Positions 1,800-21,398 of a stretch of DNA of 24,506 nucleotides are shown piece after piece; position 1 is the first letter of the stretch; each line of letters opens with the position of its first letter. The translations under genes were made by a program, and so were the position numbers. The notes below the pieces were generated by a model, which did no database searches, had not been told where the DNA came from, and was given only the letters and a program-made list of their open reading frames with translations. The stretch is from a virus. The stretch covers positions 1 to 24,506 of the IMG/VR virus record IMGVR_UViG_3300008459_000374; one strand, given 5' to 3'.

Positions 1800-1816
1800 A
1801 AAAAAATTAAAACTAA
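1800..1816 (+). promoter_or_regulatory. Leader element shared with the tube gene (copy 1)
   Basis: AAAAAAATTAAAACTAA immediately before and touching the sheath ATG. The identical 17-mer is at 6244-6260 in the leader of the tube gene. Sheath and tube are the two highest-copy tail proteins, so a translation-enhancing role is plausible but unproven. Confidence 0.4.
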
Positions 1817-4800
1817 TGGCATCTAACAACAAAGTATTTGTATCTCCAGGTGTTTACACTTCAGAGGTAGATTTAAGTTTTGTAGCACAAAGTGTTGGTG
1901 TTACGACTTTAGGTATTGTTGGTGAAACTATTAAAGGTCCTGCCTTTGAACCGATTTTCATCAGAAGCTTTGACGAGTTCTCCACTTATTTTGGTGGAAC
2001 ATCCCCTGAAAAATTTGTAAACACACAAATCCCTAAGTATGAGGCGGCGTATATCGCCAAAGCATACTTACAACAATCAAATCAATTATTTGTAACAAGA
2101 GTATTGGGTCTATCCGGTTATGACGCGGGTCCTTCTTGGTCTATTACAACTAAAGCGAATGTCGACCCGGCAACCGTTGAGTTCTTATGTACTAGCGCGG
2201 AAACTTTTAGTTGTGTTACGACTTGTTTGGATTATGAAGTAATCGATTACTCATTTGATTTTACAGGTTGCACTAATAGTACAGACTCTATCGTATTTGA
2301 CGAATCAACAATAGAATCTTTAATTAAAGATAAATTAGATCAAGAATATGAATTATTTAATGGTTCTACTTCAACTTTAAGAGATGACTTCAAGAATCAA
2401 GTGTTTGATGTAATAACAAGTAGCGATTATAATGACGCGGCGAATAATTCAGTTTATTATTATGGTATTATTTCAGGTGAAACTTATCAAACGTTTACCG
2501 GTTATACCGCACAAACAAATGTGTTTGGTGTTGATGACGTGAACTCATTAACTGCGAACTATTCAGATTCTAATAACGACCCTTGGTATTATGCTTTATT
2601 TGATAACGTAGGTTCCGGTAATTATACAGGATTCTCTTTTTATTCAGTAATTAATTTAAATTTAATACCTCCAACAACTACGACAACGTCAACATCAACA
2701 ACCACGACAACCACTACAGACCCTTGTAATCCTGTTAGCACGACAACCACATCAACAACAACTATACAACCAGTATTTTGTTATGAAGGAACTATTAGTG
2801 GTCAGATTTTTGTTTATGAAGGTAAAGCTTATACGGATTATGATGATTTAGTTGTTGCAACTCTACGTTCTAGAGGTATTGCAACATATACTCAAGATGA
2901 TGGTGCGGTTTATGAAGTTACAGGATCAACTAGTGTAACAATGAATTGTTCTAACGGATATTCAAGTGTTATAAAAAATCCTTACGCAACTTTTGGTTTA
3001 AATGTAACAAATAAAGATGGTGAAAATTTATTTTTTGAAACTTCTCTAACTAACTCAGATAGTCAATACATTACTAAAGTTTTTGGTAGAACTAATTTTG
3101 AAAAACCTAGAGATACAAACCCGTTGTTTGTTGAGGAAGTTTATCAAAGTCTATTAAATTACGGATGGAGAAAAGGTTATATTAGAGGTTTAAGCTGTTC
3201 AGTAACTTATTTACCTGAATCAAGAAATGGAGACCCTTCTTCAATAGGATGGTATCTTGAACAATATCAATCTTCAACCTCTCCTTGGGTGGTTTCTGAA
3301 TTAAGAGGTAATAAAGTTTTCAGATTATTTAAATTTACCACAATTTCAGATGGTAATAATTCTAATTACGAAGTTAAATTATCAATAGCAAATATTTCAT
3401 TTAATAATTTGACTTTCGATGTTTTAGTTAGAGATTATTATGATACTGACTCTAATCCGGTTGTTTTAGAAAAATTCACTAATTGTTCTATGGATCCAAG
3501 TGACAATTCTTACATAGCTAAAAAGATAGGAACTTTAGATGGAGAATTCCAATTAAACTCTAAATACATTATGTTAGAAGTTAACCTTGATGCTCCTGTA
3601 GATTCATTACCTTGCGGTTTTGAAGGTTACAGAAGTAGAGAGTATTCAGGTGTTAAACCTCCGTTCCCAATTTATAAAACTAAATACGATTTTCCAGGTG
3701 AGGTTGTTTATAACCCTCCTTTTGGAACTTCTACAGGTGCGGACGACGCTTTAATATCTTCAGGAGATAATGTTAGAAGAACTTACTTAGGATTATCAGA
3801 CACTATTGGTTATGATTTTGACTTTTTCGCTTATAAAGGTAAACAAACACCTTTAAATGTTTGTTTTGACACGACAGGTGATGATTGGTCTTATGTTACT
3901 AAAGGTTTCCATATGGATAAAAACGCTAGCGGTATCACAATAGGTAATGGTTTATCAACGAGTGGTACACCAGCATTTTTTGTTGGTTCGGCGGAATTTA
4001 CTTCTGATCCTGACAATGAATCAAATCCTTACTATAAAATATTTGCACGTAAATTCTCTTTAATGTGTCAAGGAGGTTTTGATGGTTGGGACATTTACAG
4101 GGAATATAGAACAAATGGTGATAGATTTAGATTAGGTCAAACTTTCTATAAAAATGGTGCGTGTCCTAATATTAAATACCCTACAGCAACAGGATGGGGT
4201 GCGTTCAAACAAATTTCGGTTGGTGATAACACCATTGATTGGGCAAATACCGATTATTACGCTTATTTGTTAGGTATAAGAACTTTTGCAAATCCTGAAG
4301 CGGTAAATGTTAACTTATTTGTAACTCCAGGTATAGATTATATCAACAATCAAAATTTAGTAATATCAACTATAGATATGATTGAAAATGATAGAGCGGA
4401 TTCTTTGTATATTACAACAACACCTGATTATAATCTATTAGTTCCTCAAACAGGTAATCAAAACGATATTATCTTCCCTCAAGATGCGGTTGATAGTCTT
4501 GATAATACAGGTATAGATTCTAACTACACTTGTACTTATTACCCTTGGGTATTAACTAGAGATTCTGTTAATAACACTCAAATCTATATTCCGGCAACTG
4601 CCGAGGTTACAAGAAACTTAGCATTAACTGATAATATCGCTTTCCCTTGGTTTGCGGCGGCAGGTTATACAAGAGGTATTGTAAACGCGATTAAGGCTAG
4701 AAAGAAGTTAACTCAAGAAGATAGAGACATATTGTATCAAGGAAGAATAAATCCAATCGCAACATTCTCTGATGTTGGAACCGTAATTTGGGGTAATAAA

Positions 4801-5139
4801 ACTCTACAAATTAGACAATCAGCTCTTGATAGAATTAACGTAAGAAGATTGTTATTACAAGCTCGTAAACTAATCTCAGCCGTTTCAGTAAGATTGTTGT
4901 TTGAACAAAACGATGAGAAAGTGAGACAAGATTTCTTAGATGCGGTTAATCCAATCTTAGATGCAATTAGAAGAGATAGAGGTTTATACGATTTCCGTGT
5001 AACCGTATCTTCTGATACTGCCGACTTGGACAGAAATCAAATGACAGGTAAGATTTATATTAAACCGACCCGTTCTTTAGAGTTTATAGATATAACATTC
5101 TATATTACTCCAACAGGAGCGTCTTTCGAGAATATATAA
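1816..5139 (+). CDS. Tail sheath protein (gp18-like), enlarged
   Basis: Encodes 1107 residues; T4 gp18 has 659. Sheath subunits polymerise around the tube and contract to drive it through the envelope. The N-terminus has the sheath signature: FVSPGVYTSEVD (8-19), GIVGETIKGPA, then YEAAYIAKAYLQQSNQLFVTRVLG (about 75-100). The C-terminal quarter (about 830-1107) is the conserved core: NLFVTPGIDYINN, then RRLLLQARKLISAVSVRLLFEQND and a final strand region GKIYIKPTRSLEFIDITFYITPTG. Between these lie inserted domains. One contains a Thr-rich tract at residues 287-316 and several Cys residues; another has SLTNSDSQYITKVFGRTNFEKP near residue 410. The insertions probably decorate the outside of the sheath. 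The gene has its own octamer and a downstream terminator, so it can be expressed alone at high level. Confidence 0.95.
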   Translation: MASNNKVFVSPGVYTSEVDLSFVAQSVGVTTLGIVGETIKGPAFEPIFIRSFDEFSTYFGGTSPEKFVNTQIPKYEAAYIAKAYLQQSNQLFVTRVLGLSGYDAGPSWSITTKANVDPATVEFLCTSAETFSCVTTCLDYEVIDYSFDFTGCTNSTDSIVFDESTIESLIKDKLDQEYELFNGSTSTLRDDFKNQVFDVITSSDYNDAANNSVYYYGIISGETYQTFTGYTAQTNVFGVDDVNSLTANYSDSNNDPWYYALFDNVGSGNYTGFSFYSVINLNLIPPTTTTTSTSTTTTTTTDPCNPVSTTTTSTTTIQPVFCYEGTISGQIFVYEGKAYTDYDDLVVATLRSRGIATYTQDDGAVYEVTGSTSVTMNCSNGYSSVIKNPYATFGLNVTNKDGENLFFETSLTNSDSQYITKVFGRTNFEKPRDTNPLFVEEVYQSLLNYGWRKGYIRGLSCSVTYLPESRNGDPSSIGWYLEQYQSSTSPWVVSELRGNKVFRLFKFTTISDGNNSNYEVKLSIANISFNNLTFDVLVRDYYDTDSNPVVLEKFTNCSMDPSDNSYIAKKIGTLDGEFQLNSKYIMLEVNLDAPVDSLPCGFEGYRSREYSGVKPPFPIYKTKYDFPGEVVYNPPFGTSTGADDALISSGDNVRRTYLGLSDTIGYDFDFFAYKGKQTPLNVCFDTTGDDWSYVTKGFHMDKNASGITIGNGLSTSGTPAFFVGSAEFTSDPDNESNPYYKIFARKFSLMCQGGFDGWDIYREYRTNGDRFRLGQTFYKNGACPNIKYPTATGWGAFKQISVGDNTIDWANTDYYAYLLGIRTFANPEAVNVNLFVTPGIDYINNQNLVISTIDMIENDRADSLYITTTPDYNLLVPQTGNQNDIIFPQDAVDSLDNTGIDSNYTCTYYPWVLTRDSVNNTQIYIPATAEVTRNLALTDNIAFPWFAAAGYTRGIVNAIKARKKLTQEDRDILYQGRINPIATFSDVGTVIWGNKTLQIRQSALDRINVRRLLLQARKLISAVSVRLLFEQNDEKVRQDFLDAVNPILDAIRRDRGLYDFRVTVSSDTADLDRNQMTGKIYIKPTRSLEFIDITFYITPTGASFENI
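2674..2763 (+). repeat. Thr-rich low-complexity tract in the sheath gene
   Basis: ACN codons dominate residues 287-316. Two Thr/Ser runs are separated by D-P-C-N-P-V (302-307). The DNA is a degenerate ACA/ACG/ACC triplet array. It probably encodes an extended linker between inserted surface domains. Confidence 0.85.
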
Positions 5140-6272: not shown

Positions 6273-6761
6273 ATGGCAGATTTGTTAATGAAAATGCCGG
6301 TTCCTTATGAACCAAAAAGGCAAAACCGATTTATAGTAAGATTTCCTTCTACGTTAGGAATCAACGAATGGTTTGTGGAATCAGCTGCAAGACCTAGTTG
6401 GAAAACAAACGCGACTGAAATCCAATTTTTAAACACTTCAACATACGTTGCGGGACGTTTTAATTGGGATCCAATTGCGGTTAAATTTAGAGACCCAATA
6501 GGTCCATCAGCGGCTCAAGCTCTTATGGAGTGGGTTCGTTTATGTGCTGAATCTGTAACAGGGCGTATGGGTTATGCTGCGGGATATAAGAAAGATATTG
6601 ATTTGGAAATGTTAGACCCAACAGGGGTTGTAGTAGAAAAATGGATATTACAAGGAACGTTCTTAGCTAGCGTTAACTTTGGTTCATTAGCTTATAGTCA
6701 AGATGGTATCGCAACAATCGACGCTTCACTTAGAATGGATCGTTGTATATTAGTATATTGA
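6273..6761 (+). CDS. Tail tube protein (gp19-like)
   Basis: Encodes 162 residues, almost the same length as T4 gp19 (163). It forms stacked hexameric rings that make the inner tail tube and the DNA channel. Supporting sequence: NRFIVRFPSTLGINEWFVESAARPS near the N-terminus, then a middle segment WDPIAVKFRDPIGPSAAQALMEWV (about 65-88), then a beta-rich C-terminal half ending ASLRMDRCILVY. This is the usual order of a gp19-type tube: strand with central Pro, WxP-V-FRDPIGPS loop, helix, then strands. The leader has no Shine-Dalgarno sequence. The gene stops at TGA and is followed by a strong terminator, so it forms a single-gene unit with its own octamer. Confidence 0.93.
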   Translation: MADLLMKMPVPYEPKRQNRFIVRFPSTLGINEWFVESAARPSWKTNATEIQFLNTSTYVAGRFNWDPIAVKFRDPIGPSAAQALMEWVRLCAESVTGRMGYAAGYKKDIDLEMLDPTGVVVEKWILQGTFLASVNFGSLAYSQDGIATIDASLRMDRCILVY

Positions 6762-6859: not shown

Positions 6860-7621
6860 ATGGATTCACAATTTATACAAGCGGCAACACAAGATTTTAA
6901 TTTACCTCACGACATTGTTCAATTACCTAGTGGAGGTATCTTTTATAGAAGTAAAAAGAAAACTATTAAAGTCGGTTATTTAACTGCTAATGATGAAAAT
7001 ATCTTATTAAGTGCATTACAAGGGAACAACAAAGATGGTGTAATGATAAACTTACTGAGAAATAAAATATATGAACCTGAATTAAGACCTGAAGAACTAC
7101 TAGAATCAGATATCCAAGCTATTTTATTATATTTAAGAAATACTTCTTTTGGAACTGAATATGTGGTTTCATTACTTGACCCCGCAACAAATAAAAGATT
7201 TGATGTTACCATTAACTTAGAACAACTTAATATAAAACAAACAGAACAAAATCCTGAATCTGACGGCACTTTTACCATTACTTTACCTAAAAGTGGAGAT
7301 GTGGTTAAAATAAAACCATTAAATTATGGTGAAATTTTGGAAATTGAAAGAATGTCCGAATCATACCCCCCAAATAGAGTTGTTCCAAAAATAACTTGGA
7401 GGTTAAATAAACAAGTTGTTGAGATTAATGGTAGTTCAGATAGACAAATGATATCCAAATATATCGAAACAATGCCGATCATGGATTCAAAGTTTATTAG
7501 AAAATTTATAAATGATAACGTCCCTTCATTGGACTTAAAACAAATTGTAACCGCCCCTTCAGGAGAGATAGTTGAAACTGAAATCAACTTTGGGGTTGAA
7601 TTTTTTCGGCCTTTCTTCTAA
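6860..7621 (+). CDS. gp26-like baseplate / tail assembly chaperone, zero-frame product
   Basis: Encodes 253 residues in the zero frame. The N-terminal half (about 18-115) fits the T4 gp26-type baseplate family: LPSGGIFY, then YLTANDENILLSAL, then a block of helices with IYEPELRPEELLESDIQAIL. A second half (about 135-250) repeats a small alpha/beta pattern with IKPLNYGEILEIERM. The gene lies directly upstream of the tape measure gene, where tail assembly chaperones sit. Their C-terminal part is usually reached by programmed frameshifting. That is the case here: the zero frame stops at TAA 7619, while the +1 frame stays open to 7754 and carries family-like sequence. The product would bind the tape measure and recruit tube subunits. 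The distinction between baseplate gp26 and chaperone is a matter of naming; both point to tail initiation. Confidence 0.75.
   Translation: MDSQFIQAATQDFNLPHDIVQLPSGGIFYRSKKKTIKVGYLTANDENILLSALQGNNKDGVMINLLRNKIYEPELRPEELLESDIQAILLYLRNTSFGTEYVVSLLDPATNKRFDVTINLEQLNIKQTEQNPESDGTFTITLPKSGDVVKIKPLNYGEILEIERMSESYPPNRVVPKITWRLNKQVVEINGSSDRQMISKYIETMPIMDSKFIRKFINDNVPSLDLKQIVTAPSGEIVETEINFGVEFFRPFF
7604..7610 (+). other. Candidate +1 ribosomal frameshift site (TTT CGG C)
   Basis: Zero-frame codons run GAA TTT TTT CGG CCT TTC TTC TAA. The P-site tRNA on TTT (7604-7606) can slip one base to TTC (7605-7607), which its GAA anticodon pairs with better. The A-site codon CGG is rare in this AT-rich genome, so a pause is plausible. 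After the slip the reading is GGC CTT TCT, giving VEFFGLSSNYREYL. Confidence 0.5.
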
Positions 7622-7789: not shown

Positions 7790-9595
7790 ATGGCTGATAT
7801 TCTTGGTAATATAGAGAATCTTTTAAAAACCGCATTTGGAGATTTTGAACAAAAATTAAAATCGGCAATTGACCCCGAAAATATTGTAAATAAGATGATT
7901 GAGGTTGATAAGCTATCATCTGAAATGGCTAAAAACTTTGGTGTTGGTAGACAAAATATTGATGCAATACAAAAAAGTTTAACGGACTCTTATACAAATA
8001 TTTCTTTGTTAGGAGGTAGTATGAAGGATATTATGGATATCCAAAGAGACACTTCCGCGGCCTTAGGTGTTAATGTAATGCAAAGCGATGAAAACGTAAA
8101 ATCATTATATGAAACACACAAAGTTACTGGATTAGAAGTGTCTAAAATGACAAGTAATTTTAAAGATATAGGTTTTTCAACGGTACACATATCTGAACAA
8201 ATGCAAAATGTTGTGGATTCTGCTAGAGCGATAGGGGTTAGTGCAACCGCGGTATCAGGTGAAGTTATGAAGAATATGAGTAAGATGAATGAACTTAATT
8301 TTGCGAATGGTGTTGAGGGTATGGCCAAAATGGCAGCTCAGGCGGTTAATTTAAGAATTAATATGTCTGACACTTTGAATATTGCAAAAGATTTATTAAA
8401 CCCTGAAAAAGCGATTGAGATGGCAGCGGCAATGCAAAGACTTGGAGTGGCTCAATCCGATTTATTAGACCCATTAAGATTAATGGAGTTAGGACAAAAT
8501 GATCCTGCTGAATTACAAAACCAAATAGCGGAAATGTCAAAACAATTTGTCCAATTAAATAAAGATGGACAATTTGAAATTATGCCTGGTGCTAAAAGAC
8601 AATTAATGGAGGTTGAACAAGCGTTAGGTTATTTACCTGGACAATTGTCAAAGATGGCAATTTCTAGTTTTGAATTACAAGACAAAATGAACAAGATAAG
8701 ATTCCCAAAAGACGCGTTTGATGAAGACCAAAAGAATTTTATTGCTAATATGGCTCAGATGGGTAAAGATGGTAAGTATGAAATTATGTTGAAGGGTGAA
8801 AAATTGGGAATTGATGAAGCAATGCAAAAATTTAAAGATGACAAAGCTCTTTTAGAACAATATATGGAAGACCAAAAACCAAAAAGTATCGAAGAATTGG
8901 CAAGAGAACAATTGGACACCTCAAAATTAATTGAAGGTCATCTAGCGGCAATAGAAAATAGTGTTGCTTATGGTACTGCCGGTAGTGGGTTAAATAAAGG
9001 AACTATGGATTTTTTAAGAGCCGGGTCTGGTATAATGGGTGAGGCTATGAGAAGTTTAATCCCTGGGGGTAAAACATCAAAACAAACAACAGAAACTATT
9101 AAGAAAATGGGTTCAAGTGCCGGTAATATCATTTCAGGATTACAAACTGGAACGATTGACCTTAGAGGAACTTTAGAAGAAATCGAAAAATTTGGTAAAT
9201 ATTTAGAGTCGACCACTTTAAGTAATTTTAAAGAAACAATCAGTAATGCCGGAGAAGAAACTGCAAAATTAAGAGATGAATTTAAAATTTTTGACAATAT
9301 TATGTCAAAAATAAATGAGAAATATGGTAAATATATACCTGAAGAATTAAAAGATAAAAAAGGTTTAGAACCTAAAGGAAGAGAAAATCCTGACATAGAT
9401 TTTAAAAATAAAGAATCTGAAACAGGTAAAAAAACAGAAACAACTCAGAATAATAATGTGACAATAACATTTAATATAAATGGTGATGGTATTAATGAAG
9501 AGACCATAAAAAAAGAGTTACAAAAAACAGAAATAATTAACACTATCAAATCAGAGTTAGAGAAATTAAAGTCGGATAACGGTATGGGTAAATAA
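7790..9595 (+). CDS. Tail tape measure protein (gp29-like)
   Basis: Encodes 601 residues; T4 gp29, which sets tail length, has 590. The protein is mostly helical and rich in Met, Ala, Gln and Lys, with repeated amphipathic stretches: KMIEVDKLSSEMAKNFG, GEVMKNMSKMNELNFANG, AIEMAAAMQRLGVAQ. A Gly/Ala-rich, weakly hydrophobic segment lies at about 400-460 (YGTAGSGLNKG, RAGSGIMGEAMRSLIPGG). The C-terminus ends in a short coiled coil after a strand VTITFNINGDG. I see no lytic domain. It follows the frameshifted chaperone-like gene and precedes the baseplate genes, the expected place for a tape measure. By the usual rule of about 0.15 nm per residue the tail would be near 90 nm, close to T4. Role is by position, size and composition. 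Confidence 0.82.
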   Translation: MADILGNIENLLKTAFGDFEQKLKSAIDPENIVNKMIEVDKLSSEMAKNFGVGRQNIDAIQKSLTDSYTNISLLGGSMKDIMDIQRDTSAALGVNVMQSDENVKSLYETHKVTGLEVSKMTSNFKDIGFSTVHISEQMQNVVDSARAIGVSATAVSGEVMKNMSKMNELNFANGVEGMAKMAAQAVNLRINMSDTLNIAKDLLNPEKAIEMAAAMQRLGVAQSDLLDPLRLMELGQNDPAELQNQIAEMSKQFVQLNKDGQFEIMPGAKRQLMEVEQALGYLPGQLSKMAISSFELQDKMNKIRFPKDAFDEDQKNFIANMAQMGKDGKYEIMLKGEKLGIDEAMQKFKDDKALLEQYMEDQKPKSIEELAREQLDTSKLIEGHLAAIENSVAYGTAGSGLNKGTMDFLRAGSGIMGEAMRSLIPGGKTSKQTTETIKKMGSSAGNIISGLQTGTIDLRGTLEEIEKFGKYLESTTLSNFKETISNAGEETAKLRDEFKIFDNIMSKINEKYGKYIPEELKDKKGLEPKGRENPDIDFKNKESETGKKTETTQNNNVTITFNINGDGINEETIKKELQKTEIINTIKSELEKLKSDNGMGK

Positions 9596-9635: not shown

Positions 9636-12600
9636 ATGTCAGAAAGCGCTCTATCCTTTACATCTACACAATCATTTAGAAACAATCTTTTAAGTAGGAA
9701 TTTGAAACCATATCGAATACCTGGAGCTTTCACACCTGCGGGTACTACAACTTATATTGCGAATATTAGTGATTATAATGTGGTCGATTCCCCTGGCGAG
9801 GTTATAACTAACGGCACGTATTCCAATCAATTATATACTTTAAATGAATATGGACCTGACGGAGGATATAACTTAAACATTAATTTCAATAATCCACCCT
9901 TAACTCAAAATTCGAATAAAGGAATTTATGATCCTTCTGACACCGCGCTTGATTTAGTTAATGAATTTTTTATTGACGCAGCGTTTGTTGTGAATAAATA
10001 CGGACCTGAAGGAGGTTATAATAGTTTGGTCGTTATTGATGATATACAGAATAGTGATAAAATTTCATTACCTTATTGGGATCCACCAATTTTCAACCCT
10101 TCATCATATTCTCCATATAATATTATAACAACAAAAAATCCTACAGGTAGCGATGGTCCTTTGTCTGAAGATTCTTTTATTGCTAAATTAGGTGCTAAAA
10201 GTTTAAAACAATTATTTGAAAGTAGAATTTCTAGTGAAACATATAAGGGTGTTAAGGGAGTTAATTTATTAATTAACGGAAAACCAACACCATTCACTTA
10301 CAATGACTTTAAAATCACCGCACCTTTAGACCAAAAGGAAAAAGATAGTGAAAAGTTATTATCAAGAATAGAGGGAGTGTATTCCCCAACATCACCAATA
10401 CCTGGAGATTATTTCCAAGATATTAATTTAAATGTTCCTTTAACTTTACAAGTTTCAGGAGCAATCAATCAAGCTAACCAAATTCTTAGTAGTGTTTTTG
10501 GTGGAAGTGCGATTTTTGGACCTATACCTGTAAAAACCATTAAACCTTCTGAAATATTTTTAGAAAATACCGGTACAGGACAGAAGTCTATTTTATTTTC
10601 AACTATTGAATATAATAGGTATAAACCAATATATAAAGACGATGTAAGTAAATTATTAAACAACCCTAATAGTGTTGAATTTAGAGCAACTCTTATTGAT
10701 TCCGCAAACGACACAATAAATAGTTCTTATTATGTCGGAAGTAGAAATTCAGAACCATCAACATTAAATTCACCAACAAATCAAGTTCCAGTAAATCCTT
10801 ATGGTCAACAAGAACAAACGCCTGTTTACGGACCTTCAGAAATGGCTATCTTATATGAAGGCAACAGAAATTTATTGGTTTTTGGTTTGGATAGTAAACC
10901 AGTTATAGATGGTGGTGGAATTGGAGGTCAATTTGTTTGGACTTCACCAAAATACAAAGGAAACGCTGGTTTTAAAGCGACCGTTGGCGGAGGTAACGGG
11001 TCTATAGATAAAGAATTTAATCAGATTAGTTCGTCATATAATAAAGACTTATCAACCAACTTAACATTTAAGAAGGGTTCTATACTTGACAATACACAAA
11101 GATTAATAGATTCTGCCGATAATGTTTCAGGTATTGCAAAATTAAAACACGTAGGAACCGCAATAAATCAAGTATCCAAAGTATTCAATGATGGGTATAA
11201 AGAACTAACTAAAGGTTCTAGAGTAGTTTCATATCGAGATTTTACTGATGGGTCTCAAAAAGGCGTCGAGTATTGTAGAGTTTTTGCTAAAGATACTCCA
11301 TACTACACTTTCGCTGATTTACAAAAAACTGATGGTATAACCACATCCGGTAGAAGATTCACAAATTCTGTGTTAGATAACACATTTAATTTAAATATAA
11401 CACCATTAAAAGGTGTCGACTCAACTAACTTAATACCAAACAACTCAGAGGGAAAAGGTGGTTATGCTAAAAAATATATGTTCTCTATCGAAAATTTGGC
11501 TTGGAGAACGTCTAGTAAACCTGGATTTACATACGATGAATTACCTGTTTGTGAAAAAGGACCTAATGGTGGTAGAGTAATGTGGTTTCCACCTTATGAT
11601 TTAAAATTTAATGATAGTAGCACGGCTTCATTTAATCCTGTTGATTTTATGGGAAGACCTGAACCTATCTATACTTATAAAAGTACGACAAGAACAGGAA
11701 CTATAAGTTTTAAAATTATTGTTGATAATCCTTCAGTAACAAATTTAATAATTGAAAAACAACTTAAAGGTGTTGGTAAAGAGAGAATTAATTCTATTAT
11801 TGACTCTTTTTTTGCTGGGTGTGTTAAATATGACATATATCAATTAGGGTTAAAATATAACACAATACCATCTAAAGATTTAGTGTTTTATAAAGAAATT
11901 TTAGAAAACCCACAATTAACTCCTGAAGAATTAAAAGGTGTTACAGCGGAAATTCCTATTGCTAATGTTGATGTTAAAAACGAAGAGACAAAATCATCTG
12001 ACGATAATCAGAAAAAAATCGATGAATATAATAAAAAATATGAAGATTTAACATTTTATTTTGAAAATGATATACCAAAACAATCTACCGAAAATTATGA
12101 AGAAACTTATAATGAATATGTAAAAAGTGAAAATATTACCAAATATTCTGATAAAACAAATTCTGCCTTTATAGATACCGGATCTTTTTGTTCTAAAAAT
12201 TTAGATTATTGTAAAAGACAAAGAGGGGTTCAAACCTTTTTTAGTGAAGTTATTGGGTGGAATTATAGTAGATTAGAGGATTTTATAAAAGATACAAGTG
12301 CGTTGTTTACTGAGAATATAGCATCTAATTTAAAAATAGAATTTGTAGGGTCAGCGTCGGCAACCGCAACCTCTGGATATAATAAAAAACTATCCCAAAG
12401 AAGAATATCTTCAGTTAAAAATTTTTTAACTGAGAAACAAGTTGGTAATATAAGTTTAAAAAAACTTTTTGAAGATAAAAAAATTGAAATAAAAGAATCC
12501 GCTCAAGGTGAGGACGGGGAGGCCGTTCCTGTAAGTAGAGGTGGAGACAAAATGGGTCGAGTTATTTGTAGTAGCGATATTACAGGGACAACCAAAGTGA

Positions 12601-14624
12601 CTTCAGATTCACAAATTTATTCATCAGACGCAATGGCGTGTAGAAGAGTTAGAATTAGTAGTATTGCCGCAAAACCTATAGAACCGCCAAAACCAAAACC
12701 AGTTGAAACCGCGCCTAATATAGATACGGTTACTTTACAACCATCAAAACCAAAATCAACAAAAAGAATAGAACAAAAAATAAAAGAGGGTATTAGTAAA
12801 AAGATATTAAGAAACCTATTAACAGAATGTGATTATTTTGAAGTTGTAAAAGAGAATGACCCAATGGTGTACGATTCAATAAAACAAAAAATAAAATATT
12901 TTAATCCGGCTTTTCACTCTATGACACCTGAAGGTTTAAACGCTAGATTAACATTTTTAAATCAATGTGTTAGACCTGGTGAAACAATACCGGTAATACA
13001 AGATGGGAAACCTGTTTATAATAACGCTCAGAATACTTCATTTGGAACTCCACCGATATTAGTTTTAAGAATTGGTGATTTTTATAACACTAAAATAGTT
13101 CCTGACGGAGTTAGTTTTACATACGATCCTTTAGTGTTAGATTTAAATCCTGAAGGTATAGGGGTTCAACCTATGATAGTCACGGTTAGTATGAATTTTA
13201 AAATGATTGGTGGTCACGGACTAAAAGAACCAATAGATAGATTACAAAACGCTTTATCATTTAATTATTACGCAAATACTGAAATATACGATGAAAGAGC
13301 TTTTGCGACCGAAGATACTACAGCGTTAGACAAACAAATTTTCGATTCAATTGTTGAATCTGAAAAACCTGCAAATGTTAATAACATTGAAAACCAACAA
13401 AAAAATGATGGAGGAAATACTATAGGTGAGATACTTACAAATATTCCTGTTACTGGCGGTCAAACAGGGGAAACATCCTATCAAAAAATAATGGACACCT
13501 TGATAACGTCTTCTAAAAAATATTCTGAGACCGTTGTAAATCAATTAGAAAAATTGGTGTTGAATTATAATTATGGTGTTTTACAAATAATGACTAAGGA
13601 TAGGTTATATATTTCTGGAACAACATCAGGAACTACGACAGGTAATAATGTTAAAATATTTGGTGCCGCAAATGGTGAATATTTAAATAGTTCTTTTGGA
13701 GATATTTTTAATGGTATAATCAAAGACGTAATAGATGATGAGACTAATCCAATAGTTGAAGAATTGTTAAAAGATAGTAGATTACCTAACGACCTTATAA
13801 GAGAAGTTAAATATAATATGAACGAATATTTAAAATCTTCAACACAAGATTTTACAAAAACTTTATTTTCTATTTTACAAGAAATAGTATTAAATGAACA
13901 AGATTTTATACAAGTAATTAAGAAAGTTAATTTAATTTGTGACAGCACCGATGGAAAATTATTATCAGGTAATATGACTAGAATATATAATTTAAGTTCG
14001 ACAACTGAAGTTAGTAATAAAAAAACTGACGGAGTTGCTCAACCAACAAATACTTATGATGAATTAATTACCGATTATACTAAATTTAACAAATATCTTA
14101 ATAACTTTGATAAATTTTTAACTGATAATGCGATAGTTACAAACACCTATGAACCTATTGGAAATTTTACACCTAAAAATACTAATTTTATTAATAATGA
14201 ACCTAACAAAAGGTTTTTTATTATATTCTCAAGAATATTACAAGATAAAAATAAAAGAAATGATTTTATTAAAGGTATAATTAAAGGTGATTTATTAAAT
14301 TATAAAAAACCAAAATATTCGTTTAATTTGTTAGATATTTTTACCGATATTGTAAACAATTTATCAAAACAATACGATAAAGAATTGGACTCAGAAGAAA
14401 AAGTTTTTAAAGAATTGAAAAAAACAAAAGATTATAAATCATTCACTAATGGTGTTGAAGAGTTATTATATCCTAAAGGTAAAATTAGAAAATTTACATA
14501 TACCACAATACCTAATCAAACTAAACAAGACCAACAAAAAATAAATCTTTTAGATATATACGCAACAACAAATAGTAATACTGATAAAAGTGTATTCGAT
14601 GGTAAAGTAAAATTAGATTCATAA
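9636..14624 (+). CDS. Large baseplate / tube-initiator-like protein with OmpA-like domain
   Basis: Encodes 1662 residues. N-terminal region: two copies of YGP(D/E)GGYN (72-79, 122-129). Region 610-760 has FPPYDLKFNDSS, a GRPEPIYTYKSTTRTGTISFKI stretch and a helix, resembling the tube-like fold of gp48/gp54-type tube initiators. A related segment follows at about 1138-1215 (VLRIGDFYNTKIVPDGVSF, PMIVTVSMNFKMIGGHG). Residues 806-1010 form an OmpA-like domain: FYFENDIP (807-814), then LKIEFVGSASATAT (899-912), YNKKLSQRRISSVKNFL (915-931) and CRRVRIS (1002-1008). The N-x-x-L-S-x-x-R core (N916, L919, S920, R923) is present, but Ser replaces the usual Asp of the G-H-T-D motif. OmpA domains bind peptidoglycan. 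The gene follows the tape measure and starts the overlapping baseplate operon. Baseplate role is likely; exact gp48/54 equivalence is uncertain. Confidence 0.75.
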   Translation: MSESALSFTSTQSFRNNLLSRNLKPYRIPGAFTPAGTTTYIANISDYNVVDSPGEVITNGTYSNQLYTLNEYGPDGGYNLNINFNNPPLTQNSNKGIYDPSDTALDLVNEFFIDAAFVVNKYGPEGGYNSLVVIDDIQNSDKISLPYWDPPIFNPSSYSPYNIITTKNPTGSDGPLSEDSFIAKLGAKSLKQLFESRISSETYKGVKGVNLLINGKPTPFTYNDFKITAPLDQKEKDSEKLLSRIEGVYSPTSPIPGDYFQDINLNVPLTLQVSGAINQANQILSSVFGGSAIFGPIPVKTIKPSEIFLENTGTGQKSILFSTIEYNRYKPIYKDDVSKLLNNPNSVEFRATLIDSANDTINSSYYVGSRNSEPSTLNSPTNQVPVNPYGQQEQTPVYGPSEMAILYEGNRNLLVFGLDSKPVIDGGGIGGQFVWTSPKYKGNAGFKATVGGGNGSIDKEFNQISSSYNKDLSTNLTFKKGSILDNTQRLIDSADNVSGIAKLKHVGTAINQVSKVFNDGYKELTKGSRVVSYRDFTDGSQKGVEYCRVFAKDTPYYTFADLQKTDGITTSGRRFTNSVLDNTFNLNITPLKGVDSTNLIPNNSEGKGGYAKKYMFSIENLAWRTSSKPGFTYDELPVCEKGPNGGRVMWFPPYDLKFNDSSTASFNPVDFMGRPEPIYTYKSTTRTGTISFKIIVDNPSVTNLIIEKQLKGVGKERINSIIDSFFAGCVKYDIYQLGLKYNTIPSKDLVFYKEILENPQLTPEELKGVTAEIPIANVDVKNEETKSSDDNQKKIDEYNKKYEDLTFYFENDIPKQSTENYEETYNEYVKSENITKYSDKTNSAFIDTGSFCSKNLDYCKRQRGVQTFFSEVIGWNYSRLEDFIKDTSALFTENIASNLKIEFVGSASATATSGYNKKLSQRRISSVKNFLTEKQVGNISLKKLFEDKKIEIKESAQGEDGEAVPVSRGGDKMGRVICSSDITGTTKVTSDSQIYSSDAMACRRVRISSIAAKPIEPPKPKPVETAPNIDTVTLQPSKPKSTKRIEQKIKEGISKKILRNLLTECDYFEVVKENDPMVYDSIKQKIKYFNPAFHSMTPEGLNARLTFLNQCVRPGETIPVIQDGKPVYNNAQNTSFGTPPILVLRIGDFYNTKIVPDGVSFTYDPLVLDLNPEGIGVQPMIVTVSMNFKMIGGHGLKEPIDRLQNALSFNYYANTEIYDERAFATEDTTALDKQIFDSIVESEKPANVNNIENQQKNDGGNTIGEILTNIPVTGGQTGETSYQKIMDTLITSSKKYSETVVNQLEKLVLNYNYGVLQIMTKDRLYISGTTSGTTTGNNVKIFGAANGEYLNSSFGDIFNGIIKDVIDDETNPIVEELLKDSRLPNDLIREVKYNMNEYLKSSTQDFTKTLFSILQEIVLNEQDFIQVIKKVNLICDSTDGKLLSGNMTRIYNLSSTTEVSNKKTDGVAQPTNTYDELITDYTKFNKYLNNFDKFLTDNAIVTNTYEPIGNFTPKNTNFINNEPNKRFFIIFSRILQDKNKRNDFIKGIIKGDLLNYKKPKYSFNLLDIFTDIVNNLSKQYDKELDSEEKVFKELKKTKDYKSFTNGVEELLYPKGKIRKFTYTTIPNQTKQDQQKINLLDIYATTNSNTDKSVFDGKVKLDS

Positions 14625-14950
14625 TGGCTAAGAGACAATCATATCAAAGGTATAACGAGTTTTTAATTAATGGGCAACAGACTATAGTTCCATACATTAG
14701 TTTACCCTCAAAAACAACCGATAAAAAATACATATATAAAGTTGGACAAAGTAGGTTAGACGTTATCTCACAACAATACTATGGTTCACCAACATTTGGG
14801 TGGTTAATATTAATGGCAAACCCTAAGTTTGGAGGACGAGAATGGAATGTTCCTGACGGATCAATATTGACAATTCCATTTCCTTTAGTAGCTTCAATAC
14901 AAGACTATAACAACCAATTAAATAATTATTTTTTATATTATGGTAGATAA
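14624..14950 (+). CDS. Baseplate wedge protein, gp53 / LysM-like
   Basis: Encodes 108 residues. The central part reads YIYKVGQSRLDVISQQYYGSP, then FGWLILMANPKFGGREWNVPDG and SILTIPFPL. This is the LysM-type pattern shared by T4 gp53-like and P2 gpX-like baseplate proteins: 'V-x-x-G-x-x-L-x-x-I-A/S-x-x-Y-Y-G-S', a W-x-x-L/I-x-x-x-N-P turn, and a final P-x-G-x-x-L-x-I-P. Such proteins sit at the hub-wedge junction and may contact peptidoglycan or other baseplate parts. The start ATG overlaps the previous stop (TAATG) and the 3' end overlaps the hub gene by 11 nt, so translation is probably coupled across all three genes. Confidence 0.82.
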   Translation: MAKRQSYQRYNEFLINGQQTIVPYISLPSKTTDKKYIYKVGQSRLDVISQQYYGSPTFGWLILMANPKFGGREWNVPDGSILTIPFPLVASIQDYNNQLNNYFLYYGR

Positions 14951-17900
14951 TTCCGAAAACATATTAGTAGACTTTGACTGCAACAACATAATCGTTATAG
15001 ACCCAAATAAAGTTATTGATGAAAATGGTAACGCTAAAGAAAGATTAGTAAAACAAGAAAATCTTGTAATGTACGCTAATCTTGAATGTAAGTTAGTCCC
15101 AAGAACAAAATTAGCTATCGGGGTTCCACTTAATGATAGTATACAAACAATATCATTAGCGTCTATTAATTTTATGAAACCCGGAGGTAAAGATTTTTTA
15201 GAGAATGATTGGGTTGATGATTTTACAGGTAAAAATTCTTTGGAGGGTAAAGGTGTTAATCAACCAAACTATAAATCTGTTGATGGACAAGACGGGTCTT
15301 CATTTATAAGAGAAACTATTCAAAATGGAGGTAAAAATGGGTCTATTGACACAGGGTTATTAGGTATTGTTAGTATAGATATTAATCAAAATACCTCTTT
15401 TATGCCGGTTATTGTTGTTAAACTAATAGATATAAAAGGTAGAGCATTATTTGAGTTGGGTGATAATTCACCATACGCGGCTTTTTTTAATTTACCTTAC
15501 CCTATGTTTTATTTAACCATAAAAGGTTATTATGGTAAGGCAATAAGACTACCATTAATGTTAAATAATTTTAGTACTAGTTTCGACGCTAACACTCAAA
15601 ATTTTGACATTACATTAAAATTCTACACATACAAATATTCGGTTCTTAGCGATTTAACTATGGGGTCTTTATTAGCAACACCTCATATGTTCCCATCCTC
15701 AATATCAATTAATACTAAACAAGGAGGGCCTTCACAATTTACAAATTCAAAAAATTCAATTGTTGAGAGAGGACTTCAAAAAATAAAAGAAGTTTATAGT
15801 GAGTATAAGTCAAAAGGACTTATTCCTGATAATTTTCCTGAGATAACTATTATGGAAATGAGGAATAGCGTGGATAATTTTGTCAACAACGTATTGGATA
15901 GTTTTACAAAACAAAATTTAGAACCATTAAACAATATAAATGATTATAAGGATATTTTAGATGAATATAGAAAAGAAGTGTTTTTCGCATTAAATGGTTC
16001 TTGGTTTTCCGATTTTATGGATAGTGAGAATTATTATATATTAAAAAATAATAGAGGGTATATTTACACATTTTTAGACGAAGACGTATCAAAAAACATA
16101 ACCGCAAAAAATAAATTACAAAAAGAATATATTGACAATTATAATAATCTATTAAATAAAAATCCGACTTGTGGTAAAAATGGAACATACAAAGTTGACG
16201 GTAAGGTTTACCCTTCAAGTATTAATTGTGACGTTAAAATAGGTCAATTTATTGTAGATAATGTAACTGATGATGATATTGATTTTGAAGAAACTTTCCT
16301 AAAAAGAAATAAAAGTAAAACAAAACCTACCAATGATGAATTAGACACATTAAGAGCTCAGTTTAGAAAAAAAAACACCGCATCAAGTGTCAGTACTAAA
16401 GATGGTAAAGTTTTTAAAGTGGAGTGGTTTATATTTGAAAGTGCGAATACAGGAAGTCAACCATCTCAAGATATTAAGGATAATAAAAGCTATGTGTTAA
16501 GTCCGAATACCGCTTTTATTGAATATACATCTAATTTATTAAAACAATTAGACAGAATAAGACAAGAAATTGAAGTCAAACTAACAGACGCTTTATCTAA
16601 CTTATTGCAAAGTAGTGATAACGGGATAGGATTTATACCCAATTTAAGAAATGTTTTAGCGGTTGTATTTGCTAGTGGAGAGGCGTTTTTAAGGTTAATG
16701 GACGATGTTCACACAACAGCTTGGGGGCTAAACTCAAATGAAAACGCTAATAGAGAACGTAAGAAATTAGTATTGAATTCTACCACATCTAATATTAGTT
16801 CAGACAATTTAACTTCAGGTTTTGATGATAATGTCCCTATTTATCCTTGGCCGCAAGTTATTGAATTAACCGTTGACCAAAATGGTAAAGAAAAATATAA
16901 TTTAGAATACCCGGGTAAATTTGTGTTAAGAGATACCTACAAAACAAATATTTTTGAATATTGGCCGGAAGTTGAATTTGTTGAGGAGTTTATAAACGCT
17001 TTAACAAAAAGAGAAGAGTTCGAAAATAAACCCGAACCAATAAAAAATGAAAGCTTAGATATAACTAAAATATCATTAAATCCTATTGAGTTTCCAATCA
17101 GTAATGACCTTTTTTCAAACAAAGAAGAGATAAAATATTTTTTTGAAATATATGAAAGAATATCCTTGTATTCTGATTATACCAGATTTTCTAGAGTGCA
17201 GAACAACACATCAGAAACAGATTCAATAAGTTTAATTATTTCTGAAGCGGAAAGTACAAATATAAAAAATAGTTTAACTAACGATAGTCCATTTCTTTTA
17301 AGTAAGTTAAAACAATATAGATTTTTATCATCAAATTTCTTAGAAATACTTAAAAATTTTTCAAATAACGGATTAGGTGAAAGCTGGCAAAATTTCATTA
17401 GAGGTAATTTTAATACTCCATACATAAAAAATACGATAAATAACTCACAATTTAGTTTTATTAATTCACTATTACTATCTAGTAGTATTAGTTCACCATC
17501 AGTATCTTTAAATAATGTTGGAGAATTATCTAAATATTTTAAAGAATCTACAACATCAAATGAGTTTGATTTTTCAGATATATACCCAATAACTAATCTT
17601 AATTGGGTTAAAAATAATTTTTCTAATGGTAAAAGTATTGGTAATGTTAAAAACATTTTTAATACTACAAAGGTTTTGAATTACGACGCTGATAAAAAAA
17701 CAATAACTAATTTTAGTGACTTTTCAGATTTAAAGAAAAATAGACCAATTACTAATTTTAATTGGATAGGTAATAAATTACCAAGTTTAACTGATATCGA
17801 TTACCCCGTTTTAAAAAATTTTTTCATTAATAGAAATACTGAAGACCAACTACCAACTGAAGGTGATTTAACTTATAGAAGTTACAATAACGGAGACGAA

Positions 17901-20900
17901 GATAATTTATTTTTTTATCAAACAACATCAATATTTAACACACCATATTTTACAAATTCAATACAGGAAGGGGTTAGTAAGTTTAGAAGTTATAATCAAT
18001 ATCCATTTGTTTCTGCCGCATACTATTTTATAAATAGTTTACCTTTAGCGACTTTAAGAGAGAAGTATAAATCATACACATCAAATGGGGATAATGTTAA
18101 ACCAAACGTTGAAGACTTGGACTACATTATCTCAACACTAAAAAAATTTGGTGCAATACATAAAATACCATATGCTTGGATTTTAAAACTGGGTTCAGTT
18201 TGGCATAGATATAAAAAATTTTATGAAACAGGTGAAGATATTTTAAATAATTCTTGGACAGGTACTAGTTATATTAGTAATTACGACCCTGAAACTAACA
18301 ACCCTGAAAAAGTTTATAGTTTAGTTATTAATAATTCGCAGATAGATATCGTATTACAAGATAACACGATTATTGGGGGACAAGAATTTACCCTAATGAA
18401 TGTCGGTTTCTACCCAAAATTAATCAATGATTTTAATGTATTTTATCAAGGTTATGAAATATATACAGGATATACCGACCAAGATATACAATCAGGGTTT
18501 ACCTCTGGAGTTTCTTTAAATTATGTTGAAAATGCTATTATAGATTTACCTAGGTCAGGAACAACACTACCTGGTTTCGACCCAAATTCGCAAACAAGGA
18601 GTTTAAGAATAATACCTTGGTCAGTTACGGTCGATACTTTAGATAAGAAATTTTCATATGTTTTACCATCAGCCGGCTCACTAATAAATCAAACAAAGAA
18701 TCAATGTTTTGATATAACAAAAACACCAAACCAATTAAAAATTGAGGTTTTGAATAATAAATCAATTTTTGATGGTTCCGTTAGAAATTTTTGGGGCGCA
18801 CCAAATTACGGATATTTTGATAACGAAAGAGTTGATAAACCTGACGTTAGTGAATATTTGAAAAAAATAATATCTGACCAAAGTGTTCAAAACAATTTTA
18901 GAATAACAGGTTTAGATGGGTATACATCGATAAGTGACATTTTTGGGGCTTTTGAAAAAGATGTTTTAGATGCCTTCGAGGAACAATTTTTAAATTTCTC
19001 AAAATCAGTATATGATTCTGAAATTAATATTGATGTTAATAATACCGACACGGTTAAAAATATTACTAATTCAATCAATTTAGACGATTCGACTAGTAAA
19101 ATGTTAAATTTCCAAGCTTTAATGAGAGATATAATGAAAATCAGTAAAGTTACTGGAAATACCGGAACCGAATACGTCACAAATGTTCAAATAGCTCAAA
19201 CTGCGAATATTGTTGACAAAATTAAGAATTTTTTAAGTTTTGACATAGTATTTAAATACGGAAATCCGACAAACTTTAATAAAAGATTATTTTATAGTTT
19301 TTCAAACTTTGAAATTACAGACCCATTAACTTGGAATTATTATACGGTTGATACCCCAAACGCTCTACCTTCACAGGGAGGATCAGTAACGTTTTTACAA
19401 TCTTTCAATAACTATGTTGAGGAGTGGAAAACATTACTAACTTACGTTGGATTTAGTGATATACCTGAATTAGTTTACACCAATAACGGGTCCTATATAA
19501 CAGATTTTTTTATTGACTTTAATGTTGCGTTTTCAGTTAATAATATTAAAAATTTAACACCAATTATTAAAATTTACGCAACTCAAAAATTATTAAATCC
19601 TTCATTAAATCGCGAAAAATTTACCGATTTAATGGATGAATATATTCAAAAAAATGATAGATTTTTAGGTAAAATATTAAATAATGTATTCATTAATTTA
19701 AGGAAAAATCTTCCGGATGTCTCAATATCTACAAGAGGAAATACTTTTTCTAAATTAGAGGGTAACCAAACTAAATATGAAGTATATGATGTTTTAAAAT
19801 CTTTAAATGATAAATGGATTTCTGGTTCGGATTTTAAAAATAAAACTTTATTTGAAGATGTTTTATTATTAGATAGAGCGTCTAGAAATATTGGAGATAA
19901 AATTTTGGTAGACATTTATAAGTTAAAAAATAGATTAACCAATATAAATGCCGACTCTAAAATGCTTTCATTCATTCAGTCCATAATTATTGAGAATCAT
20001 TTTGTGGTTATGAACTTACCTTCATATGTAAATTTTTACAATGTACAAGATGTGGTTAAAAATCCAACACCTAGAATTGAAGGGACGACTGAATTTGCTA
20101 ACACATTGTTTGGAACTTTTTTAAATGTTGATTATACCGATTCTTCATCTAAAATGGTTTGTTTTTACGGAAATAAACCTAGCGAACATTTGGACGTTAA
20201 AAAGAATGTGGATTATAGATATAGAAATGATGGACTTGACATTTATAATTGTAATAATGATTTAGTAGAAAATCTATCAAATAAAACTGACTATGGATTA
20301 TCAAATAGGGTTGTCGGATTTAATGTAGATATTGGTCCTCAAAATCAACAAATATTTAATGGGTTTAATGTTACCCAAAACGCAGGTAAAGCCACTAGTG
20401 AAAGTTTACAAATATTAAACGAAATGGCTAACTTGAGAGGAAATAGAGGTGGGGCAACTCAGAGCACTTCATTATATAATTTATATAAAAATAGAAGTTA
20501 TAGTTGTAGTGTGACTATGTTGGGTAACGCTTTAATACAACCAACAATGTATTTTAATTTAAGATACGTCCCTATGTTTAGTGGTTCTTATATGATACTA
20601 GATGTGAATCATAAAATATCACCTGGTTCTTTTATGACTACCTTTACAGGTATTAGACAAAACGCGGCAAGATTACCTGAGTTGGACGATTATTTACAAA
20701 TTTTAAAGGTTAATTTGTTAAAATCTATCCAAGATAATGTTATAAAAAATCAAAGAGATAAGAGTAGTGGTAGTACTGGAAATAGTATTTCTAACAAAAA
20801 TAACGCATCTAATAGTGTGACAAATAAAAATTCAACTACTTTATCTGCTAATCAAAGTTGTAAACCTAACGACAAGTATTCTAAATTTGAATTATTTAAT

Positions 20901-21398
20901 TCGAACAAATCAAAATATAAAACCACCGAAGTTATTAAAAAACTAAATGAAGTTTTAGGTAGCGGAAGTGAATCTTTAAAAATAAAAACAACTATTTTCT
21001 GTTCGTTTTATTGGGGGTCTTATGATGATAAAACATTTAACGCTTACGGAGAAAATTTATCATCAGTAGTTATTAGTCAAGATTGGGCGGCTTTAGGTGA
21101 CCAATATTTTAGTAAAAAATATTATTGCTCGTCATCAAACGACCCAATGGCAGTATTTGAAACCCTTGAAAAATTAATTCAATTTTTTAATAGTAAATGG
21201 TCACAAATAATTAACACAGAAATAAAGACGATAGATGAAAAGAGTGTTACAAGATTTTTATTATTATATTCAGAATCTAAAATTAAAACTACAAATGAAT
21301 ATAATCAAATAAATAAAGATAATTTAAAAGTTCTCGAGGATTTTACAAAAAAAGCAATTAATTTATTTAATTCGGCGTCACAAGGAATTTCTCCATAA
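14940..21398 (+). CDS. Giant baseplate hub protein (gp27/gpD-like C-terminal core)
   Basis: Encodes 2152 residues; T4 gp27 has 391. The N-terminal 260 residues look hub-like, with LGIVSIDINQN, FYLTIKGYYGK and NFDITLKFYTYKYSVLSDLTMGS. The clearest part is near 1790-1920: VVGFNVDIGPQNQQIFNGF, then YSCSVTMLGNALIQPTMYF and GSYMILDVNHKISPGSFMTTFTG. This matches the end of gpD/VgrG/gp27-type hubs, where a strand-rich domain ends in 'G-Y-x-I-x-x-V-x-H-x-I-x-x-G-x-F-x-T'. After it come an Asn/Ser linker (about 1940-1980) and a C-terminal helical domain with Cys residues. The long middle holds a repeat, PITN(L/F)NW (883-889 and 936-942). I see no lysozyme motif. The gene starts inside the previous one, so it belongs to the same operon. 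Confidence 0.8.
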   Translation: MVDNSENILVDFDCNNIIVIDPNKVIDENGNAKERLVKQENLVMYANLECKLVPRTKLAIGVPLNDSIQTISLASINFMKPGGKDFLENDWVDDFTGKNSLEGKGVNQPNYKSVDGQDGSSFIRETIQNGGKNGSIDTGLLGIVSIDINQNTSFMPVIVVKLIDIKGRALFELGDNSPYAAFFNLPYPMFYLTIKGYYGKAIRLPLMLNNFSTSFDANTQNFDITLKFYTYKYSVLSDLTMGSLLATPHMFPSSISINTKQGGPSQFTNSKNSIVERGLQKIKEVYSEYKSKGLIPDNFPEITIMEMRNSVDNFVNNVLDSFTKQNLEPLNNINDYKDILDEYRKEVFFALNGSWFSDFMDSENYYILKNNRGYIYTFLDEDVSKNITAKNKLQKEYIDNYNNLLNKNPTCGKNGTYKVDGKVYPSSINCDVKIGQFIVDNVTDDDIDFEETFLKRNKSKTKPTNDELDTLRAQFRKKNTASSVSTKDGKVFKVEWFIFESANTGSQPSQDIKDNKSYVLSPNTAFIEYTSNLLKQLDRIRQEIEVKLTDALSNLLQSSDNGIGFIPNLRNVLAVVFASGEAFLRLMDDVHTTAWGLNSNENANRERKKLVLNSTTSNISSDNLTSGFDDNVPIYPWPQVIELTVDQNGKEKYNLEYPGKFVLRDTYKTNIFEYWPEVEFVEEFINALTKREEFENKPEPIKNESLDITKISLNPIEFPISNDLFSNKEEIKYFFEIYERISLYSDYTRFSRVQNNTSETDSISLIISEAESTNIKNSLTNDSPFLLSKLKQYRFLSSNFLEILKNFSNNGLGESWQNFIRGNFNTPYIKNTINNSQFSFINSLLLSSSISSPSVSLNNVGELSKYFKESTTSNEFDFSDIYPITNLNWVKNNFSNGKSIGNVKNIFNTTKVLNYDADKKTITNFSDFSDLKKNRPITNFNWIGNKLPSLTDIDYPVLKNFFINRNTEDQLPTEGDLTYRSYNNGDEDNLFFYQTTSIFNTPYFTNSIQEGVSKFRSYNQYPFVSAAYYFINSLPLATLREKYKSYTSNGDNVKPNVEDLDYIISTLKKFGAIHKIPYAWILKLGSVWHRYKKFYETGEDILNNSWTGTSYISNYDPETNNPEKVYSLVINNSQIDIVLQDNTIIGGQEFTLMNVGFYPKLINDFNVFYQGYEIYTGYTDQDIQSGFTSGVSLNYVENAIIDLPRSGTTLPGFDPNSQTRSLRIIPWSVTVDTLDKKFSYVLPSAGSLINQTKNQCFDITKTPNQLKIEVLNNKSIFDGSVRNFWGAPNYGYFDNERVDKPDVSEYLKKIISDQSVQNNFRITGLDGYTSISDIFGAFEKDVLDAFEEQFLNFSKSVYDSEINIDVNNTDTVKNITNSINLDDSTSKMLNFQALMRDIMKISKVTGNTGTEYVTNVQIAQTANIVDKIKNFLSFDIVFKYGNPTNFNKRLFYSFSNFEITDPLTWNYYTVDTPNALPSQGGSVTFLQSFNNYVEEWKTLLTYVGFSDIPELVYTNNGSYITDFFIDFNVAFSVNNIKNLTPIIKIYATQKLLNPSLNREKFTDLMDEYIQKNDRFLGKILNNVFINLRKNLPDVSISTRGNTFSKLEGNQTKYEVYDVLKSLNDKWISGSDFKNKTLFEDVLLLDRASRNIGDKILVDIYKLKNRLTNINADSKMLSFIQSIIIENHFVVMNLPSYVNFYNVQDVVKNPTPRIEGTTEFANTLFGTFLNVDYTDSSSKMVCFYGNKPSEHLDVKKNVDYRYRNDGLDIYNCNNDLVENLSNKTDYGLSNRVVGFNVDIGPQNQQIFNGFNVTQNAGKATSESLQILNEMANLRGNRGGATQSTSLYNLYKNRSYSCSVTMLGNALIQPTMYFNLRYVPMFSGSYMILDVNHKISPGSFMTTFTGIRQNAARLPELDDYLQILKVNLLKSIQDNVIKNQRDKSSGSTGNSISNKNNASNSVTNKNSTTLSANQSCKPNDKYSKFELFNSNKSKYKTTEVIKKLNEVLGSGSESLKIKTTIFCSFYWGSYDDKTFNAYGENLSSVVISQDWAALGDQYFSKKYYCSSSNDPMAVFETLEKLIQFFNSKWSQIINTEIKTIDEKSVTRFLLLYSESKIKTTNEYNQINKDNLKVLEDFTKKAINLFNSASQGISP

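Follow-up and report, generated by a model that had tools for sequence, protein, structure and literature searches.

How contractile phages grip the cell wall whilst the tail tube crosses the periplasm is poorly understood, and a peptidoglycan-binding fold in a baseplate is a candidate anchor. The locus considered here raises the question of whether such a fold is present in the baseplate of an uncultured phage and, if so, what it does there. The window, i.e. the whole stretch of DNA analysed, is a 24.5-kb IMG/VR virus record (IMGVR_UViG_3300008459_000374, 24,506 nucleotides). A preliminary description of it had placed an OmpA-like domain at 12051-12665, which corresponds exactly to residues 806-1010 of a 1662-aa protein (open reading frame at 9636..14624, + strand), and had proposed that it may help the baseplate to engage peptidoglycan during penetration. 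The fold and the baseplate context are both borne out by profiles, structure prediction and synteny; the engagement of peptidoglycan emerges as plausible.

The gene lies within a contractile-tail cluster. In order, the window encodes a tail sheath (1816-5139; 1107 aa), a tail tube (6273-6761), a gp26-like baseplate protein (6860-7621), a tape-measure protein (7790..9595, +; assigned from its position and sequence character), the 1662-aa protein, a homologue of the LysM-fold baseplate wedge protein gp53 of T4 (14624..14950, +; PHROG 7145, E 9e-7; hhalign to T4 gp53, E 3.2e-5) and a 2152-aa neighbour (14940..21398, +) that is presumed to be a wedge protein from its position in a conserved gene order. 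The family match of this neighbour is to PLAT/LH2 alone and is weak (residues 190-267, E 0.0054). Sheath-family matches are confined to the last ~300 residues of the sheath, the N-terminal part of which is long. The window also encodes a glycosyltransferase and a single-strand binding protein of the gp32 type. The order of tape measure, 1662-aa-type protein and gp53 was seen in all 14 loci read across the junction, and three phages that are further removed have a syntenic open reading frame directly upstream of gp53. Most loci read have homologues of the sheath, the tube, the gp26-like protein and gp53 in this order, which places the protein in a tail/baseplate cluster. The host is probably a member of the Bacteroidota, a tentative assignment based on the bins in which homologues were placed and on phage immuto, which is a Flavobacterium phage.

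Using patterns drawn from the whole 1662-aa protein, we recovered 39 IMG/VR homologues with 36-71% identity. The domain alone found no relative as a single-sequence query; the whole protein as the query did. Among 50,697 phage records nothing matched the whole protein or its C-terminal half, PHROGs contained no family for it, and hhalign comparisons with T4 gp27, gp48, gp54, gp5, gp6 and gp7 were not significant (E 0.066 or worse). RecA appeared amongst the phmmer matches to the PDB due to low-scoring repeats, and was dropped once a profile was used. The C-terminal ~420 residues (1240-1662; 13353-14624) are little conserved, with no match found.

Residues ~804-1015 (12045..12680, +) are almost certainly a divergent member of the OmpA_C-like (OmpA/Pal/MotB) fold superfamily, as judged from profile matches and a predicted structure. 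Pfam OmpA (PF00691) matched the window domain with E 3.3e-4 and 21.4 bits, which is below the curated gathering cut-off of 27.2, and Foldseek against the PDB gave no match with E <0.001. These two scores speak for chance, or for convergence on a beta-alpha-beta sandwich that has no homology to OmpA. However, we consider either to be highly improbable since independent members of the family, the profile search of the PDB and the structural superposition agree on one superfamily, with the pocket motif in register. PF00691 matched 18 of 20 aligned members (best E 2.1e-5), every other family matching two members at most. The first 26 chains in the PDB profile search were all OmpA/Pal/YfiB-type, ahead of any unrelated chain (best E 6e-4), and the NCBIfam matches of the window protein were mostly OmpA-type and covered the same stretch as the Pfam match. 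Divergent phage copies also score as OmpA (Pfam E 1.1e-4 for the rumen copy in contig L124; see below).

Structure prediction, which the preliminary description had named as the result that could overturn its reading, gave the OmpA fold. The AlphaFold2 model of the domain (pLDDT 86.8, pTM 0.83) has a four-stranded sheet with beta-alpha repeats and superposes on Pal and OmpA, with VIA-align Z scores of 10.2 for E. coli Pal (rmsd 2.4 Å over 122 residues), 9.7 for A. baumannii OmpA, 9.8 for PorE and 9.1 for TagL. In a 761-residue model (residues 490-1250), the OmpA-like domain was still mostly at 80-94 but the flanks failed (mean pLDDT 48.9). The Foldseek comparison proposed at the outset was partly successful: PorE was the top PDB match, but the best PDB E value was only 0.007, a weaker signal that is expected because of two large insertions. 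Given that a check for the Asp that defines them showed it to be absent, we do not class the domain with the canonical peptidoglycan-binding OmpA domains.

The anatomy of the domain follows from the model and from alignment (all features on the + strand). A helix at residues 783-802 (11982..12041; DSSP on the AlphaFold2 model) precedes strand 1, which with its loop forms the motif FYFENDIP (807-814; 12054..12077). The strand itself is FYF (807-809), and both F809 and P814 are ~99% conserved across 52 aligned domains. Between strand 1 and the canonical helix 1/strand-2 glycine are ~62 extra residues, mostly helical (approximately 815-876; 12078..12263; AlphaFold2 helices at model residues 42-99). 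This length, previously put at about 80 residues, comes from the 96 residues that separate F809 from G905 compared with 34 from F to G in E. coli Pal. A G-S-A-S loop (905-908; 12348..12359) follows, in which S908 aligns with the DAP-binding Asp, and then the pocket helix, Y915 N916 K K L919 S920 Q R922 R923 (12378..12404; aligned with its PorE and TagL equivalents). The surrounding sequences are IEFVGSASATAT at residues 901-912 and YNKKLSQRRISSVKNFL at residues 915-931. A second extra loop, ahead of the last strand and between strands 3 and 4, holds Cys978 (12567..12569), and the last strand (ACRRVRI, 1001-1007; 12636..12656) carries Cys1002. The motifs quoted in the preliminary description were thus all present and no more than one residue from the numbers given, including the key R923 and the N-x-x-L-S core. 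Cys978 and Cys1002 are invariant in all 52 aligned domains; a disulfide is present in the corresponding region of E. coli OmpA and RmpM, and none in PorE (PMC7192894). Other Cys pairs are clade-specific, with CPEC near strand 1 in L007-type homologues and CX6C in the insertion of the window protein (C852/C859; 12189-12212); these pairs are possible disulfides or a metal site.

From the alignments, the domain has very probably been inserted at the hinge where the two halves of a conserved baseplate domain would otherwise join. At the corresponding place upstream of gp53, Flavobacterium phage immuto, Microcystis phage Mel-JY01 and phage LR756508 have a protein of different length (716, 2255 and 1582 aa, respectively), each with one contiguous ~190-residue domain near the C-terminus. 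In the window protein, residues 631-708 (11526..11759, +) match columns 10-87 of this domain (hhalign probability 95%, E 1.8e-8), and residues 1134-1192 (13035..13211, +) match columns 103-171 (E 0.0027, probability 11%). Taken by itself the second match is weak, but it is colinear with the first, and control segments of the protein gave E values of 0.19-0.59. The two halves align to consecutive columns of one contiguous domain, so that the place of a ~15-residue turn in the other three phages is taken by ~425 residues, the OmpA-like domain among them. A profile search of phages immuto, Mel-JY01 and LR756508 found no OmpA domain.

The domain occurs often: scanning IMG/VR with motifs returned 474 stretches that encode a relative, and in 80 relatives that we fetched it was confined to this baseplate protein and to this site. 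A homologue of 1000-1800 aa, in which a divergent OmpA-like domain again separates the two halves, is encoded on contigs binned with rumen Bacteroidales and on related contigs in IMG/VR. Two follow-up scans with these distant homologues produced nothing new. The tail cluster is also carried by L124 (G001:C1, CACYXI010000001.1, 286,648 bases), a contig in a rumen Bacteroidales MAG; it may be a large phage genome that ended up in the bin of its host. In L106, the baseplate open reading frame is broken in two midway through the OmpA-like domain (open reading frames at 1446 and 3915), reflecting either a frameshift or assembly error or a real interruption.

To judge the binding pocket, we compared it with two OmpA-like domains for which contacts have been reported. 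The residues with which PorE holds the stem peptide are Arg591, Asn584, Asp576, Phe541, Tyr583 and Ile587 (PMC7192894). The aligned residues here are R923, N916, S908, F809, Y915 and L919, so that five of the six contact side chains are kept (Phe, Tyr, Asn, Leu/Ile and Arg) and Asp is changed to Ser. Binding by TagL requires Asn494, Leu497, Ser498, Arg501 and Ala502 (PMC8253398); the first four correspond to N916, L919, S920 and R923, and Ile is found at the Ala502 position. The TagL contacts with equivalents here were counted as three out of four.

The pocket residues are strongly conserved. Across the 52 domains, N916 and R923 are retained at 97% and 94% by weight, and N916, L919, S920 and R923 occupy ranks 11-17 of 211 columns by conservation (permutation P 0.00017). 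The motif scan had collected loci through SASA and AMACR motifs, and we therefore repeated the test on 20 sequences obtained from whole-protein patterns only, with a similar result (mean rank 20 of 211, P 0.0009). Since the sequences share ancestry, these P values are indicative and overstate independence, and column conservation names no ligand. In the rumen-type copies the pocket Arg is kept in nine out of nine.

The DAP-binding Asp is another matter. Its position is Ser908 in all 52 aligned domains, as the preliminary description had noted for the window, and Ser is also invariant in the 20 sequences that were not motif-collected. The divergent rumen-type copies have T, S or N at this position, with D in one. 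In A. baumannii OmpA, D271A and R286A are described as critical for DAP binding (cited in PMC6572160). The suggestion that G-x-A-S variants exist in Bacteroidota OmpA proteins was correct: of the cellular OmpA domains that two Bacteroidales genomes encode, 17 in all, 15 have Asp and two have Ser (GYAS), a third Ser being that of the phage locus itself. The existence of these cellular variants does not show that they bind peptidoglycan.

One explanation of the Ser is that the pocket binds another host ligand, e.g. a stem peptide that is amidated or modified in some other way, a free muropeptide or the C-terminus of a periplasmic peptide, the Asp-to-Ser change having shifted the specificity. The pattern of change fits, as Arg and Asn remain and the change is limited to the Asp that contacts the amine (Ser here; mostly T/S/N in the distant phages), and GYAS is also found in some cellular Bacteroidales OmpA proteins. 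Nonetheless, the sequence singles out no particular ligand and, to our knowledge, no ligand has been assigned to the cellular GxAS variants; we regard this explanation as unlikely.

We favour docking of the pocket on peptidoglycan, the putative ligand, with a probability of roughly 0.45; its plausibility comes from the pocket residues Tyr, Asn, Leu, Ser and Arg, which rank with the best-conserved positions. The domain would sit at the surface of the tube-proximal baseplate. During infection, once the tail has breached the outer membrane, the pocket would grip peptidoglycan by its DAP-containing stem peptide, with the carboxylate held by Arg923 and the rest by Asn916, Ser908 and backbone amides; Tyr915, Leu919 and Phe809 would form the hydrophobic sides. 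The tail tip would thereby be docked on the wall in the way that TagL anchors the T6SS or PorE the T9SS, whilst the helical insertions and the Cys pair may stabilise the domain. The near-complete pocket, its strong conservation, the predicted autonomous fold and the TagL/PorE precedent argue for docking; the loss of Asp from all 52 domains, a clade that lacks the pocket and the structural precedent of LysM argue against it.

That clade comprises L028 (1787-6439), L029 and L040, where the start of the helix with Asn-Leu-Ser-Arg is deleted or degenerate. Conservation in related baseplates, which the preliminary description had put forward as a check, holds for the pocket in most members, and in this clade for the rest of the domain. 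The other core positions are kept, and Ser906, Ser908, Cys978 and Cys1002 are invariant even here, so part of the conservation must be unrelated to the pocket. As a natural pocket-loss variant, the clade is useful for comparison. The main rival to docking, that the OmpA-like fold is a captured structural module that packs on other baseplate proteins, or whose pocket is filled by a partner subunit's peptide, and that makes no contact with peptidoglycan, draws on this retention of the fold without the pocket Asn and Arg (L028/L040), on the absence of the ligand-binding Asp from all members and on the structural role of LysM folds in two baseplates: the LysM domain in the A-1(L) phage wedge protein is a buried structural clamp, ringed by helices of the wedge and by initiators (PMC10966104), and in Milano, LysM is the C-terminal domain of the baseplate centrepiece (PMC10811340). 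We regard this as a serious possibility, somewhat short of even odds. Against it, Tyr-Asn-x-x-Leu-Ser-x-Arg-Arg outranks nearly all other columns in most members, which would be needless for a mere spacer, and AlphaFold2 folds the domain alone with the flanks unfolded, as for an independent module. If the domain is only structural, it would join LysM in gp53 as a second example of contractile baseplates recruiting a wall-binding fold as a structural part.

Returning to docking, a broader picture can be offered tentatively, on odds of about one in three: that widespread uncultured phages, probably of Bacteroidota, possess a wall-docking clamp made by putting an OmpA-type domain, its specificity altered by the Asp-to-Ser change, into a conserved baseplate domain. 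It would be a virion counterpart of TagL and PorE. In the open-access literature, to which our search was confined, we found no OmpA-like domain described in a phage baseplate; papers on a Leptospira prophage and on Tenacibaculum mention OmpA but have no bearing on the question.

Amongst phage proteins, a close structural match is the unannotated A0A6J5L6C4 of an uncultured phage (E 5.9e-6), which may be the same baseplate protein; R9ZWT8 of Cellulophaga phage phi17:2 and A0A6J5KTY6 of an uncultured phage (327 and 411 aa) are OmpA-like but match weakly (E about 0.25). The C-terminal domains of E. coli Pal and A. baumannii OmpA (PF00691) share with the phage domain the beta-alpha-beta-alpha-beta-alpha-beta fold (Z ~10 and 9.7), the N-x-x-L-S-x-x-R pocket helix and RRV at the last strand. 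They differ in having Asp in G-H-T/A-D where the phage has Ser, in lacking the ~62 residues between strands 1 and 2 and the extra loop before strand 4, and in being at the C-terminus of an envelope protein rather than an internal insertion in a phage structural protein. T4 gp53 and related LysM-fold wedge proteins similarly place a fold best known from peptidoglycan binding inside a contractile baseplate, but the fold is another one, the protein is separate and, in solved baseplates, it is a buried structural element. PorE of the P. gingivalis T9SS (PMC7192894) is from the Bacteroidota, like the probable host here, has an insertion ahead of the last strand and makes the Phe, Tyr, Asn, Ile/Leu and Arg contacts; however, it retains the Asp and its crystal contains bound peptide, whereas in the phage domain the Asp is replaced by Ser, and there is a Cys pair with no counterpart in PorE. 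TagL, the peptidoglycan anchor of the EAEC T6SS (PMC8253398), likewise carries an OmpA-like domain on a contractile injection machine, with equivalents of the Asn, Leu, Ser and Arg; it retains Asp486 and is an accessory protein of the membrane complex of the firing cell, whereas the phage domain belongs to the baseplate of a free virion.
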